DNA of 64,000 bases, taken from the NCBI GenBank assembly GCA_015233725.1, contig JADFXD010000002.1, positions 22,437-86,436 of the forward strand, in the 5' to 3' direction. The stretch's first letter is position 1, and the number at the start of each line of letters is the position of its first letter. Shown in pieces: positions 31,221 through 38,237 of the stretch. The notes below the pieces were generated by a model, which had not been told where the DNA came from, did not search any database, and worked only from the letters and a program-made list of their open reading frames with translations. The stretch is from Nitrospirota bacterium. GTDB lineage: Bacteria > Nitrospirota > Thermodesulfovibrionia > Thermodesulfovibrionales > Magnetobacteriaceae. The translations under genes and the position numbers were made by a program.

Positions 31221-31320
31221 GTGGTCAAGGGCACTGGTGTGCCCTTGCAGGTGGGTCTGAGGGAGCCAGGAGCGTCCTGGAGCGTAAAAGAGGGCAAAGC
31301 CCTCCCTTCTTTTTCTTTAT
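31221..31320 (-). repeat. Composite dispersed repeat R7 (contains one 27-bp-type module at 31266-31291)
   Basis: gtcaagggcactggtgtgcccttgcaggtgggtctgagggagccaggagcgtcctggagcgtaaaagagggcaaagccctcccttc. Confidence 0.85.
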
Positions 31321-31330
31321 GTTTGCAAAG

Positions 31331-33571
31331 TCATAAATCCATCGAGGTATCGATCAACGTTGGGGGGTCTCCGTTGCCCTGAGTATCTACGCTGTCTGGG
31401 ATATCTCCGTTGCCGTTGCCTGACTCCCCGATGTCAGTGGGAGTGTCCAGCCGCAGGTAAGAAGTGGAGCTTGCACCGGCCTCTCTGGGGGGCGTATCGA
31501 CTTCAGTGGTTATGCTGACAGGTTCGACTGCAGGCTTAACCGGCTGCTGTTGTGGGGGGTCGGAAGTGAAAGCGTCGCAGACTCTATTACCTTGCCCGGT
31601 TGTAAGCCATCTGATAAACTCAAAGCTATCACGGTAGTTTACAGAGGGATGAATCAGCGGATTTACCGCCATGACATAATTATGATTATTAAGCACAGGG
31701 TTGTTGTCCACAAAGACGTCGAGTTTGAGATTTTCCGCGGATTTCATATCTTCAAACGCGGCCTTATCGGTGATGGTATATGCCATGAGCCTTTCAGTCA
31801 ATCTGAGGGTATCGGACATCGACTGTCTGGTTTCGATGTACCATGACTGTGCCGTTGGGTCAATCCCCAGCGACCTCCACAGGGCCATCTCCTGCATATA
31901 GACCCCGGAGTTATCCCCGCGCGAGATAAACAGACCGCCATTCCCACACGCTATTGCCCTTAGGGCCTCTTGTGGTGAAATGCCAATTCTCAGTTTAGCC
32001 GGATTCGAGTAGTGACCAACCAGCAGAAGCTCATTACGCTTTAGTCTGTGTATCTCAACGAAACACCTGTCGGAGGCAGGAGCATTATCGGCCTCAGTAT
32101 TATAGTCGGCGTTGAGTGTAGCAAATGCCATGTCGATATGCCCTCTCTTGCCAAGCTCCAGGGCCAATCCCGAAGAGACGGGGGAGACGTGTATCTCTAT
32201 GCCCTCTTTTTCCATATACGCAGGGATTATGTCTTGCATACACCCGCTGTCAATAATACTCGTCGATACTGCACACCGGATTTGCCTGGTCTTTGTGCGC
32301 CGTAGCTGTATCTCCATCTCGGTACATTTCGTATTGACCTGCCTGAGTCTCTCGGAGATCACAGATGAGAGGTTTCTGTAGAGCTTAAAACACAGACTTT
32401 CACTGGTCTTTCTGAGTACGACCTCGTTGATCTCGATAACGGTACAATCCGTCTGTGCCGTTGCCGTGGCTGACCGCAGGGATTGATCCAGTATGGCCAT
32501 CTCTCCAAAACAGGCGCCCTGTCCAAGGGTGGCAATGGTCTTTTCATTATCAGCTACCTTCTTTGAGATCGTAACATTACCGCTGACAATAACGTACATC
32601 TTCTGTCCGACCGTGCCCTCCTTAAAGATCACCTCTGACTTTGGGAAGTAGACGATCGTGCTCATCTTCATGACCTGATAGATTTCGTTGTGGGTGAAGT
32701 CGCAAAAGAAGGTGTAGTTTTCCTTCAGTGAGATGATGAGGTCTCTCATGTCCTTGTCGGTGAGTTCGGGGAGGTCTGCGTACTCCTCCTTTTCGATGGC
32801 GTGGAGGAATAGCTCGAGGTCATCGGCCAGATCGGCTGCTGAGGCGTAGCGGTCTTCCTTGTTCTTTTCGAGCCCCCTAAGGACGATCCTGTTTATCTCG
32901 TGCGGGATATCGCTATTGATCTCATACAGTGGTTCAGGGGTCTCATTGAGGACGGCCTTGAACAGGGCCTTCAGGGAGTTGGCAAGAAACGGCTTTATGC
33001 CAGTAAATAGCTCATACGCCAGGACGCAGAGCGAGTATATGTCAGTTTGGCGGTTAAGGGGTTGTCCAAAGAGCTGTTCCGGTGACATGTAGTTGGGCGT
33101 GCCGCTTAAAGATGTCCGTGAGTCGATAGTATCCTTGGACTCTGCCGTGGCAATGCCAAAGTCCATGATCTTTATCTGGCTGTCGTCGATTATCATGATG
33201 TTGGCAGGTTTTATATCCTTGTGTATGATACCATTTTGGTGGGCATAGTGCAACGCCCTGGCTATGAGGATTATGATCTTTACCTTTTCCTTAAGTGGCA
33301 GCCTTTCCTGTTCCACTATGATGTCCTTTAAGGTCACCCCGTTGACGTACTCCATGAAGATGAAGTGAGTGTCTTCAAACTTCTCCACGTCGTAGATCAT
33401 CGTGATGTTTGGATGGTGCAGCTTACCGAGATTCTTGGCCTCCTGGAGATTCCCCGCGGTCTTGGCGGCAACAATCCTCTCTATAAGCGTATCATACCCC
33501 TTGTATACAACCCCCTGCGCCCCACGCCCTATCTCCGTGAGGTTTATATACCTCCCCAAGTTAAGCAGCAT
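31331..33571 (-). CDS. Ser/Thr protein kinase + cyclic-nucleotide-binding domain + TupA-like (tungstate-binding) domain
   Basis: Kinase HKDIKPANIMIIDDSQIKIMDFGIA; cNMP fold FPKSEVIFKEGTVGQKMYVIVSGNVTISKK..FGEMAILDQSLRSATATA; TupA-like CAVSTSIIDSGCMQDIIPAYMEKEGIEIHVSPVSSGLALELGKRGHIDMAFA..FISRGDNSGVYMQEMALWRSLG..AYTITDKAAF..LNNHNYVMAVNPLIHPSVNY. No signal peptide or TM apparent. Confidence 0.85.
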   Translation of the reverse strand: MLLNLGRYINLTEIGRGAQGVVYKGYDTLIERIVAAKTAGNLQEAKNLGKLHHPNITMIYDVEKFEDTHFIFMEYVNGVTLKDIIVEQERLPLKEKVKIIILIARALHYAHQNGIIHKDIKPANIMIIDDSQIKIMDFGIATAESKDTIDSRTSLSGTPNYMSPEQLFGQPLNRQTDIYSLCVLAYELFTGIKPFLANSLKALFKAVLNETPEPLYEINSDIPHEINRIVLRGLEKNKEDRYASAADLADDLELFLHAIEKEEYADLPELTDKDMRDLIISLKENYTFFCDFTHNEIYQVMKMSTIVYFPKSEVIFKEGTVGQKMYVIVSGNVTISKKVADNEKTIATLGQGACFGEMAILDQSLRSATATAQTDCTVIEINEVVLRKTSESLCFKLYRNLSSVISERLRQVNTKCTEMEIQLRRTKTRQIRCAVSTSIIDSGCMQDIIPAYMEKEGIEIHVSPVSSGLALELGKRGHIDMAFATLNADYNTEADNAPASDRCFVEIHRLKRNELLLVGHYSNPAKLRIGISPQEALRAIACGNGGLFISRGDNSGVYMQEMALWRSLGIDPTAQSWYIETRQSMSDTLRLTERLMAYTITDKAAFEDMKSAENLKLDVFVDNNPVLNNHNYVMAVNPLIHPSVNYRDSFEFIRWLTTGQGNRVCDAFTSDPPQQQPVKPAVEPVSITTEVDTPPREAGASSTSYLRLDTPTDIGESGNGNGDIPDSVDTQGNGDPPTLIDTSMDL

Positions 33572-33591: not shown

Positions 33592-33662
33592 TGAAGAAGA
33601 AGAAAGAAAGAAGGGAGGGCAAAGCCCTCCCTTCTTTCCCTTTCTTTTTCGCTTTCTTTGTC
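33592..33662 (-). repeat. Composite dispersed repeat R8, long near-palindrome between fhs and the kinase
   Basis: gaagaaagaaagaagggagggcaaagccctcccttctttccctttctttttc; hairpin gggagggc-aaa-gccctccc flanked by purine/pyrimidine tracts. Confidence 0.85.
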
Positions 33663-33663
33663 T

Positions 33664-35427
33664 TTAGAATACGCCTTTGACTCTGCCTGTTTCGGCGTCT
33701 ACGTCGACGCGTCTGTAGGCGGGGTCTGAGGATGTGCCGGGCATCAGTTTTATGTCACCGGCCACGGGGACTACGAATCCTGCACCCTTGTACAGGAGTA
33801 TGTCTCTTATGATCAGCTTCCACCCCTTGGGTACGCCCTTCTTGTTGGGGTTGTCGGAGAGACTCAGGTGTGTCTTGACCATGCAGGTGCCGAGCTTGCT
33901 TAACTCGGGGTCGGATTCTATGTTCTGGGCCTTCTTAAGCGCATCGGGTGAGTACTCAACCCCTTCTGCTGCATAGACCTTTGTGGCAATGGTGTGGATC
34001 CTCTCCCTTAACGGCATCTCAAGGGGGTAGAGGAACTTGAATTCGTTTTCTTCGTTACAGGCGTCAATGACAGCATCCGCCAGTTCAAGGGCGCCCTCGC
34101 CGCCTTTTTCCCAGTGCCTGGAGACGGCCACCCTGGCCCCTACTGCCTCTGCCATCCACTTAACGGCATTGATCTCGTTGACCGTATCCGTGTAGAAGGC
34201 GTTGATACAGACAACCGGATTGATACCAGCGCTCTTGATCGTGTTGATATGGTGGACGAGGTTTACACAACCCTTTTCAGTCCACTCGACGTTTTCGCCC
34301 TTGTACTCATCGGGGATCGGCCTGCCTGGAACGGGGATCGGGGCGCCACCGTGACACTTCAGTGCCCTCACCGTTGCCACGATGACAGCCGCGTGTGGCT
34401 TTAGACCAGAGTACCTGCACTTGAGGTTCCAGAACTTCTCAAACCCGATATCGGCGCCAAATCCGCTCTCTGTCACATTATAGTCGGCCAGTTTTAGCCC
34501 CACCCTGTCGGCAATAATCGACGACTGCCCGATGGCTATATTGGCAAACGGCCCGGCGTGTACCAGGACGGGCTGTCCCTCAATTGTCTGCAGCAGATTG
34601 GGGTTTATGGCCTCTATCATCCACGCCGTCATGGCCCCTGCAACTTCCAGGTCTTCCGTGGTGACGGGTCTACCATGACGGTCATATGCCACCACGATCC
34701 TGCCCATACGCTCCCTGAAGTCCTTGAGGTCTGTTGCCACGGCCAGGATCGCCATTATCTCCGAGGAGACGGCTATGTCAAACCGACTCTCCATCATCGC
34801 TCCATCCATCTTGCCACCGAGGCCGATGGTCATCTTTCTGAGGGACTGGGCGCAGAAATCTATTATCCATGCCATCTGAACGTTCTTTGGGTCTATGTTG
34901 AGGCGTTTGAGGTTCCTCTTGAGCAACTGCTCGTCGTTGTAGTTGTTCTCATGCTGCATCCGCGAGGTCAGGGCAACCATCCCCAGGTTGTGGGCGTTCA
35001 TTATGGCGTTGATATCGCCCGTGAGTCCCAGGGAAAACGGTGTCAGCGGGATGCACTGTGACAGTCCCCCACCAGCGGCCGAGCCCTTGATGTTCATCGT
35101 CGGACCGCCAGAGGGCTGCCTGATGACCCCCACGACCCTCTTCTGTCTCTTGCCAAGCCCCTGGACGAGTCCCATAGTTGTTGTCGATTTACCCTCGCCA
35201 AGGGGGGTGGGCGTTATGGCCGTGACGTCTATGTACTTGCCATCGGGTTTGCCCGCCATACGGCTTAGAACCTTCTTAAAGTCAACCTTGCCGATGTAGT
35301 GACCATGCGGTAAGAGCTCCTCTTTCTCAAGTCCCAGTTCGTCGGCGACCTGATATATCTGCTTCATGTGAGCCTCAGCAGCCTCGGCTATTTCCCAATC
35401 GGCGTGTTTAGTTGGATCCAGTGGCAT
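33664..35427 (-). CDS. fhs: Formate-tetrahydrofolate ligase
   Basis: [78 protein letters not shown]. Confidence 0.97.
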
Positions 35428-35489: not shown

Positions 35490-38237
35490 CTATAGCTTAT
35501 CTATCCTGACTGCGCAGGCCTTGTACTCTGGGGTGCCGGCGATGGGGTCGCGTACCCCAGAGGTCAGGATGTTTGTAAGTGCGTCCTCAAAGTGAAAGGC
35601 CAGAAACACGTTGCCTGCCTGTGAGCGTTGAGTTACCTCTGCTTTAACATATATCTCTCCCCGACGTGATGACACCCTGACTTTTTCGCCGTGGGCTATG
35701 TTTAGTCGTGTGGCATCGGCGTGGTTTATCTCTATCGTCTCCTCAGGGGACAGCTCCATGATCCCCCTGACCCGCCTTGTCATAGAGCCGTTGTTGTAGT
35801 GTTGCAGTCTCCGGCCCGTGATAAGGACATATGGGTACTCTGTATTGGGCAACTCGCCAGAGCCTGCGTGCTCTACGGCTACGAACAGGGCCTTTCCACT
35901 GGGACGATTGAACTGCAGCTCATAGAGCGTGGTCGTACCGGGATGGTCTTTGGTAGGACAGGGCCATTGTATACCCTGTTTTTCAATCCGCTCGTAGCTG
36001 ATACCGCCGTAGTTGGGGGTCAGGCTTGCTATCTCGTCCATTATCTCAGAGGGGTGGGTATAGTTCATCTCAAACCCCATCCTCTTTGAGAGCTCCTGGA
36101 GAACCTGCCACTCGGCCATACCGGCAAGGGGTTCTATGGCCTTTCTGACCCTCTGCACCCTGCGTTCGCCGTTTGTGAATGTGCCATCCTTCTCCGCAAA
36201 GGATGCCCCGGGCAGGATGACGTCGGCAAAGCGTGTTGTATGGGTGTGGAATATGTCACAGACGACGAAGAACTCAAGGGCGTCAAATGCCTTCCATATA
36301 TGATTGATATTGGGATCGGTATGGGCGGTATCGGCTCCCATGGTGAATAGCCCTTTGAATGTTCCCTCGATGGCCCTATCAAACATCTCTACGGATTTGA
36401 GACCGGCAATGGTTGGGAGTTTTACATCCCATGCCCGTTCAAACTTTTCTCTGACCTCGGGCTTTGATACATACTGGTATCCCGTATATACATTTGGGGC
36501 AGGCCCCATGTCGGAGGCACCCTGGACGTTGTTCTGTCCCCTCAGCGCCATTATGCCCGTTGACGGTCTGCCGATATGTCCGCATGTAAAGGCAAGGTTG
36601 GCTATAGCCATGACATTTTCAGTACCCGTGTGATGCTCGGTGACGCCAAGGCCGTAGAGGATCATGGCATTTTTGGCCTTTGCGTAGAGGCGTGCTGCCT
36701 TTTCGAGCTTGTCTACTGAAACCCCGGTTATCTGTTGGGTGTATTGTGGGGTGTATTTCTTGACGGCTTCTCTGAGTTCATCGAATCCCTCGGTACGGTT
36801 TTTGATGAACTCGTCGTTTTGGAGTCCGTCTCTGAGTATGATATGGATAAGACCGTGTAACAGGGCGATGTTTGACCCTGGCCTTAAGTTCAGCCAGACA
36901 TCGGAGAACTTGACAAGGTCAATACGCCTGGGGTCGCCAATGATGATCCTGGCGCCGTTTCTGATTGCCGCATTTACGTGAAGGGACACTATGGGGTGTC
37001 CTTCCGTGGTGTTTGAGCCAAATATAAACAGCACGTCGGCATCCTTTATCTGTTCCAGGGAGTTACTCGCGGCTCCCGCACCCAATGAGGTGGCCAGACC
37101 GGCCACAGTTGGGGCATGTCAGACACGGGCACAGTTATCCACATTGTTGGTGTTGAGTGCCACCCGCACCCATTTTGCAAACAGGTAATTCTCCTCGTTG
37201 GTGCATCGTGAGGAAGAGAACCCTCCTACACTGTCGGGGCCGTATTTGTTTTTTAGTTCCATGAACTTCGATGCCACAAGGTCGAGGGCCTCATCCCACT
37301 CTGCCTCTCTGAATACGGCCATCGGGTCTTTCAGAACCTCCGGGGAGGTATCCGTTACGCCCTCGCGGCGGATGAGGGGTTTGGTTATCCTGTCGGGGTG
37401 TTGTATGAAGTCATAGCCAAAGCGTCCCTTTACGCATAGGTTTCCTTTGTTGACGGGGGCGGCGTAGTCGGATGTGACCTTGACGATCTTACCTTTATTG
37501 ACGTTGAGGTAGAAGTTGCAGCCTGTGCCACAGTATGTACAGGTCGTACGCACGCGCTCAACGCTGCCGACCCGGCCCTTGCCCCGTGCCTGTTTTTCGG
37601 TGAGCGCCCCCACAGGACAGGCCGAGACACACTGGCCACAGAACACACATATATCCGGCGTGAGGGGCTTTCCAAAGGCCGTGTCGGGCTTGGAGTAAAA
37701 TCCCCTGCCGGTCATATCTATCGTGCCCTTCATCACCACGTTCTGACAGATGTTGACGCAACGACCGCACAACACACACTTATTGGGGTCGTAAGAGATG
37801 AAGGGATTGTCGTCCTTTTTAGGCAGATTCCACATCTCACCATAGTAATTGTCGTATCTGACGCCATACATATAGACAAGTTCCTGAAGCGTACATGCCC
37901 CAGCCTTTTCGCATAACATGCAGTCGTTGGGGTGATTGGACAACAGTAGCTCCAGTACAGTCTTTCTGAGCCTGGTTATCCTGTCGCTATCTGTTGTCAC
38001 CTCCATGCCTTCCCTGATCGGGGTTGTACAGGACGACAGGGGTCGCCCCTGTCCCTTTACCTCCACCAGACAGAGCCGGCAGCCACCATAGGCCTCCAGG
38101 CGCTCGTCGTAGCACAGCGTTGGCACATATATGCCGCTGTCACGGCAGACCTGTAAGATCGTCTTACCACTTGCAGCGGTAACCGTCTTACCGTTTATAG
38201 TCAATGTTATCGTATCTTGCGCAATTGCTGTTGTCAC
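35490..38237 (-). CDS. fdhA: Formate dehydrogenase catalytic subunit, NuoG-like N-terminus, selenocysteine at in-frame UGA (37119-37121)
   Basis: Two track ORFs (37119-38237 and 35490-37106) share one frame: ...NNVDNCARV-[TGA]-HAPTVAGLATSLGAGAASNS. N-terminus has 2Fe-2S/4Fe-4S motifs (CVLCGRCVNICQNV, CVFCGQCVSACPVGA, CTYCGTGCNFYLN). Confidence 0.95.
37078..37121 (-). promoter_or_regulatory. Putative bacterial SECIS element downstream of the Sec UGA
   Basis: On minus strand UGA-caugCCCCAAcuGUGGCC-GGUCU-GGCCACcucaUUGGGu: outer CCCAA/UUGGG and inner GUGGCC/GGCCAC stems with a GGUCU apical loop. Confidence 0.85.

Follow-up and report, generated by a model that had tools for sequence, protein, structure and literature searches.

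The window, a 64,000-nt stretch of DNA from a Nitrospirota bacterium of the Magnetobacteriaceae (GCA_015233725.1, contig JADFXD010000002.1, positions 22,437-86,436 of the forward strand), contains a gene in which a Hanks-type Ser/Thr protein kinase, a cNMP-binding domain and a TupA-type PBP domain are joined in one polypeptide that ends in a variable tail (Table 1). The fhs gene lies upstream of the fusion on the same strand, with fdhA beyond it; the first-pass annotation of this DNA had placed the kinase directly downstream of fhs and a Sec-fdhA, an arrangement borne out by the 92-bp gap between fhs and the fusion and by the in-frame TGA of fdhA. A GGAGG ribosome-binding sequence is kept upstream of the fusion gene in all four genomes that carry it, which supports the assigned start site.

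Table 1. Features of the fusion locus; coordinates are those of the window, and residue numbers are those of the fusion protein unless TupA is named.
Feature	Coordinates	Strand	Remarks
Fusion gene	31331..33571	(-)	Hanks-type Ser/Thr kinase, cNMP-binding domain, TupA-type PBP domain and variable tail; 746 aa, soluble
Protein kinase domain, residues 9-243	32843..33547	(-)	Pfam Pkinase, E 5.6e-47
cNMP-binding domain, residues 307-388	32408..32653	(-)	Pfam cNMP_binding, E 7.5e-22; cassette FGEMAILDQSLRSATA
TupA-like PBP domain, residues 427-668	31568..32293	(-)	NCBIfam TupA, PDB, profile comparison
Variable tail, residues 669-746	31331..31567	(-)	dN/dS about 0.26-0.49; conserved PTLIDTSMDL-type motif at end
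T437-S438	32258..32263	(-)	Thr11-Ser12 of the TupA TTTS motif; kept, invariant
T485	32117..32119	(-)	TupA His59; not retained (fusions: T/E/A/A)
R551 in SRGDNSG	31919..31921	(-)	TupA Arg118; kept, invariant
V557	31901..31903	(-)	TupA Thr124; lost, Val in 4/4 fusions
R582	31826..31828	(-)	Arg in every fusion; transport-type TupA has the Gly of GQGM here
D602	31766..31768	(-)	TupA Asp170; kept, invariant
Second palindrome copy	31289..31309	(-)	21 bp past the fusion stop codon
Strong terminator-like hairpin (18 bp, 9 GC)	33603..33641	(-)	Between fhs and fusion; palindrome copy at 33614-33634
fhs, formate-tetrahydrofolate ligase	33664..35427	(-)	Neighbour, not a conserved partner
fdhA, in-frame TGA (Sec) at 37119-37121	35490..38237	(-)	Neighbour

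The three-domain architecture and its boundaries, as drawn in the first-pass annotation, are confirmed by matches to Pfam, NCBIfam and the PDB. The segment that follows the cNMP domain runs straight into the TupA domain, and the TupA/PBP homology spans this domain over its full length. Pfam PBP_like_2 matches residues 431-646 (E 3.1e-9), and the NCBIfam TupA model matches residues 427-668 with an E-value of 4.4e-26 and 91.8 bits, which misses the 400-bit equivalog cut-off; that cut-off discriminates weakly here, because the standalone TupA proteins of relatives also fall below it (best about 250 bits). The assignment of the domain to the TupA class is reinforced by its nearest solved structures, the tungstate-binding TupA 3lr1 (E 2.9e-32) and the D. 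alaskensis TupA 5my5 (E 9e-26), and by a profile-profile comparison in which the fused domains of the four orthologues matched a set of 13 standalone TupA-type proteins (probability 100%, E 2.6e-60). AlphaFold2 models reached a pLDDT of 31 for the full-length protein (four sequences) and 37 for the TupA domain alone. A Kyte-Doolittle 19-mer scan of the 746 residues revealed no transmembrane helix, the most hydrophobic 19-mer (mean 1.3) lying within the kinase, and no signal peptide is evident. As no stretch is hydrophobic enough to form a transmembrane helix, the TupA domain should be cytosolic, in agreement with the location proposed earlier.

The fusion is known from four species, a magnetic bacterium and its three nearest known relatives, all members of the genus Candidatus Magnetobacterium (Nitrospirota). 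In addition to the window's genome, M. casense (L003) and the metagenome-assembled genomes MYbinv3 (L004) and nMYbin3 (L002) encode orthologues that share the three domains and are 72-77% identical; since four genomes assembled independently all carry the fusion, it does not stem from faulty assembly. No fusion was found in the 16 other Magnetobacteriaceae genomes searched, which encode kinase-cNMP proteins and mostly standalone TupA proteins, and no cNMP-TupA continuity was detected beyond the genus among the 396 Nitrospirota genomes drawn. Peptide patterns, whose reach is close relatives and not distant convergent fusions, retrieved no close relative beyond the genus in 85,000 species genomes, and a scan of viral contigs returned no TupA relatives. 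Two 726-aa frames (G016, G019) were rejected as second fusions because each proved to be an ordinary TupA ORF of 264 aa within a long frame that lacks stops, and a 616-aa frame (G061) was not taken as a fusion, as it runs into TupA out of apparently non-coding sequence. The protein is real and rare, a single conserved fusion.

The kinase domain carries every motif expected of a Hanks-type enzyme, and the glycine loop, K37, E44, H117-K118-D119, N124, D137-F138-G139 and P164-E165 are invariant in all four orthologues. It resembles the bacterial Hanks-type kinases over the full catalytic domain (Pfam Pkinase; top NCBIfam score PknB_PASTA_kin), but the fusion lacks their transmembrane helix and PASTA repeats, and its sensors, the cNMP and PBP domains, are both cytosolic. 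The phosphate-binding cassette of the cNMP domain, FGEMAILDQSLRSATA, contains the Glu and Arg characteristic of the cAMP/cGMP class within an FGE...RS motif, and E357, R366 and S367 are invariant in the four orthologues. Its closest solved relatives are the cNMP domains of cGMP-dependent kinases; eukaryotic cGMP-dependent protein kinase (PKG) likewise combines a kinase and cNMP domains in one chain, whereas in the fusion the domain order is reversed and a TupA domain is added. On these signatures both the kinase and the cNMP domain look functional, and the latter is predicted to bind a cyclic nucleotide. Six matches to adenylate/guanylate cyclase domains in the window's genome make cAMP or cGMP a plausible input. 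Of the two second inputs suggested in the first-pass annotation, a cyclic nucleotide is thus compatible with the intact pocket, whereas c-di-GMP was rejected because the cassette is of the cAMP/cGMP type.

The TupA domain shares its fold family, over its whole length, with the periplasmic TupA of the TupABC importer (3lr1, 5my5, NF041772). The residues named for the anion site of DaG20 TupA are Thr9-11, Ser12, His59, Arg118, Thr124 and Asp170 (PMC5517513). Four of these eight residues are kept in the fusions (Thr11 and Ser12 of TTTS, Arg118 within the SRGDxSG loop, and Asp170) and four are altered. Arg118, which is retained, is essential in TupA, as the R118E variant binds neither anion, while Thr9, one of the two residues closest to the metal in a solved TupA (PMC5517513), is replaced by V/I/I/A in the four fusions. 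The equivalents of Thr10 are S/A/A/A, Thr124 and His59 are lost, the position of the latter (485) varying even among the fusions, and the glycine of GQGM has become an arginine. The anion loop S550-R551-G552-D553-x-S555-G556 is invariant in all four despite the stem of 1.58 substitutions per site on which the fused clade sits. Read from the alignment, the anion site is therefore half kept and altered, and tungstate specificity cannot be assumed with four of eight residues changed. Of the tungstate/molybdate sensor envisaged in the first-pass annotation, a TupA-class cytosolic domain within a one-component kinase stands, its tungstate specificity is weakened, and the loss of oxyanion-binding residues that would have spoken against it is partial. 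Apart from its pocket, the fused domain differs from TupABC-type TupA in being cytosolic, joined to a kinase and encoded away from tupBC.

The rates at which the domains evolve differ along the chain. The dN/dS ratios are 0.05-0.10 for the kinase and cNMP domains and 0.10-0.25 for the TupA domain, whose rate of evolution is two to three times that of the kinase. On these ratios the TupA domain is maintained under purifying selection, yet changes faster than the kinase and cNMP domains. All four orthologues share a PTLIDTSMDL-type motif at the very end of the more variable tail (31331-31400), which may serve for phosphorylation or docking. When 26 TupA domains were placed in a tree, the fusions grouped together in a single clade (100/100) on the long stem noted above, and this clade joins no particular donor. 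The kinase-cNMP portion also forms a clade of its own, next to two groups of paralogues from the family, although the branches are long and the exact joint is unsure. Kinase-cNMP proteins of about 450 aa from Magnetobacteriaceae (L005-L008, L111, L112), which occur as several paralogues per genome, are 42-50% identical to the fusion over the shared module, but they stop after the cNMP domain.

The importer from which such a domain might derive appears to be missing from the genus. No standalone tupABC was found in its genomes (56-96% complete), and no match at the level of TupB was found in any of them, the best TupB matches being ModB-like or absent. ModB exceeds the curated cut-off in two of the four genomes, and neither TupB nor ModB was seen in the remaining two (92% and 56% complete). 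The sole other TupA-type gene of the genus encodes a lipoprotein in M. casense, while tupBC is retained in several other Magnetobacteriaceae genera. Given that no tupB was found, that there is a single other TupA-type gene and that two of the four genomes carry ModB, the fused domain would no longer be part of a transporter. These observations fit a scenario in which a kinase of the genus ancestor took up a TupA-type domain once and the importer was lost; as the genomes are incomplete, this loss is something we infer.

Other TupA-type and kinase-cNMP loci of the family were also encountered. In four Magnetobacteriaceae genera, the genes for a TupA-type lipoprotein and a histidine kinase overlap or lie end to end (L105:9600-12499, L144:6370-10196, L145:4331-7551 and L147:4953-7807), and a HAMP domain was found in the L105 kinase. 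These lipoproteins keep the pocket His59, Thr124, Arg and Asp, and carry R/K/N at the GQGM glycine that corresponds to Arg582 of the fusion. The pairs are candidate periplasmic two-component sensors of tungstate or molybdate. Because kinase-linked lipoproteins also depart from glycine at this site, the GQGM glycine may mark a transport role, in what is a small sample. In one genus of the family (L171, L172, L174, L175), several genomes have a kinase-cNMP gene without a TupA domain some 2.6 kb away from tupBC, with tupA elsewhere.

The surroundings of the fusion gene do not hold across the genus. A palindrome, GAAGGGAGGGCTTTGCCCTC, occurs in two copies that bracket the gene and in 40 copies throughout the genome at no more than one mismatch, whereas the reversed pattern occurs 0 times; it is a dispersed, REP-like element with the capacity to terminate transcription. 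Because a strong terminator-like hairpin separates the fusion from fhs and dispersed palindrome copies lie on either side, co-transcription with fhs is doubtful, and the gene looks like a recent arrival at this position. Weak Rfam matches over the fhs-kinase gap were judged to be chance, caused by the long hairpin. Within fdhA, a weak SECIS_3 match at 37066-37124 (-) (29.6 bits against a gathering score of 63) is consistent with a Sec formate dehydrogenase. None of the window's neighbour genes is present at the L002, L003 and L004 loci; the fusion and fhs are found on separate contigs in M. casense (C2 and C9) and in MYbinv3 (C64 and C117). The neighbours in M. casense include a PAS/GAF histidine kinase, a hybrid histidine kinase and a Peripla_BP_6 protein, those in MYbinv3 a PDDEXK_2 transposase-family protein, and those on the 4.4-kb contig of nMYbin3 an SBF-family transporter and an LMWPc protein, read as Acr3 and ArsC. 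Among the neighbours scanned, no W/Mo enzyme lies beside the orthologues, and across the fusion loci no conserved neighbour points to a ligand or substrate. In MYbinv3 the fusion is about 4 kb from genes for a CooC-like ATPase, 5-FTHF cyclo-ligase, FolD and MTHFR (L004:16422-20969). The occurrence of one-carbon genes near both this fusion and that of the window is probably chance, and we do not read it as a link, since there are two cases at different loci. The adjacency to formate dehydrogenase is peculiar to the window's genome.

We consider it about an even call that the fusion is a soluble dual-input Ser/Thr kinase that senses a cytosolic oxyanion through a TupA domain taken over from an uptake system and retuned. 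In the ancestor of Candidatus Magnetobacterium, a kinase-cNMP protein would have gained the substrate-binding protein of a TupA-type importer, minus its signal peptide, as a C-terminal cytosolic sensor. The two lobes of TupA close around the anion (PMC5517513). Closing of the fused domain on a cytosolic oxyanion, together with binding of a cyclic nucleotide to the adjacent domain, would probably alter kinase activity through the cNMP-TupA segment. Tungstate or molybdate would be the likeliest ligand by descent, perhaps bound with lower or changed affinity or specificity, and is the leading but unproven candidate. TupA binds tungstate with pM-nM affinity, picomolar binding being that of a scavenging protein. 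The changed pocket residues argue for an altered affinity or specificity, which would be more fitting for a cytosolic sensor than a scavenger's picomolar binding.

Alternatively, the TupA domain could have lost ligand binding altogether and now serve as a dock or scaffold for substrates or partners of the kinase, leaving the cNMP domain as the only sensor. The four altered anion-site residues, His59 and Thr9 included, the long stem of the fused clade and the two- to three-fold faster evolution of the domain speak for such a role. A pure scaffold, however, has no need of R551, D553, S555, G556, T437, S438 and D602, which are all invariant, and the dN/dS of the domain stays at 0.10-0.25, so that we regard this reading as rather unlikely. 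A change of specificity could instead have produced a sensor of another tetrahedral oxyanion, such as arsenate, phosphate, sulfate or selenate. The anion loop survives with other residues at the His59 and Thr124 positions, and the nMYbin3 gene adjoins the Acr3-type transporter and ArsC-type protein, but this arsenic-type neighbourhood was seen once and nothing independent points to one anion; we judge a switch of this kind to be quite improbable. The first-pass annotation had favoured a tungstate/molybdate-gated kinase that controls the adjacent formate dehydrogenase/formyl-THF system. Descent from TupA, the fhs-fdhA adjacency in the window's genome and the retained Arg118 and Asp170 equivalents agree with it. 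However, the orthologues with readable surroundings sit elsewhere, so the expected association with W/Mo enzymes fails; in M. casense no Sec-FdhA exceeds the family cut-off although the fusion is present, a terminator follows fhs, many relatives possess fhs-fdhA clusters without the fusion, and a tungsten-type AOR was not found in the genus. We consider control of the adjacent genes very unlikely.

The fusion, for which we favor the retuned dual-input kinase, is a new combination of known domains. No report of a kinase-TupA or kinase-cNMP-PBP protein was found in the open-access literature, and the main text of a survey of prokaryotic Ser/Thr kinases describes attached TPR, PASTA, WD40, GAF and other domains without periplasmic-binding or cNMP domains (PMC2877116). 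Cytosolic PBP-type regulators of W/Mo do have a precedent in the TaoR-like proteins (HTH, PBP-like and TOBE domains), and the W/Mo sensors named in the same work bind DNA and contain TOBE or PBP-like domains (PMC11980592). The output of TaoR is DNA binding, whereas that of the fusion is predicted to be Ser/Thr phosphorylation, and a Pfam scan found neither an HTH nor a TOBE domain in it. That this is the first cytosolic PBP-gated Ser/Thr kinase, formed when the W/Mo-binding subunit of an importer since lost from the genus was captured and made to convert an intracellular oxyanion signal into phosphorylation, is a tentative and somewhat doubtful proposal. If true, a cytosolic oxyanion read by a kinase would represent a different output route from that of the DNA-binding W/Mo sensors, and the protein would be an example of an importer subunit turned into a signalling domain, a conversion that can be tested site by site through the Arg, Asp, Thr and Ser that are kept, the His and Thr that are lost and the Arg that is new.
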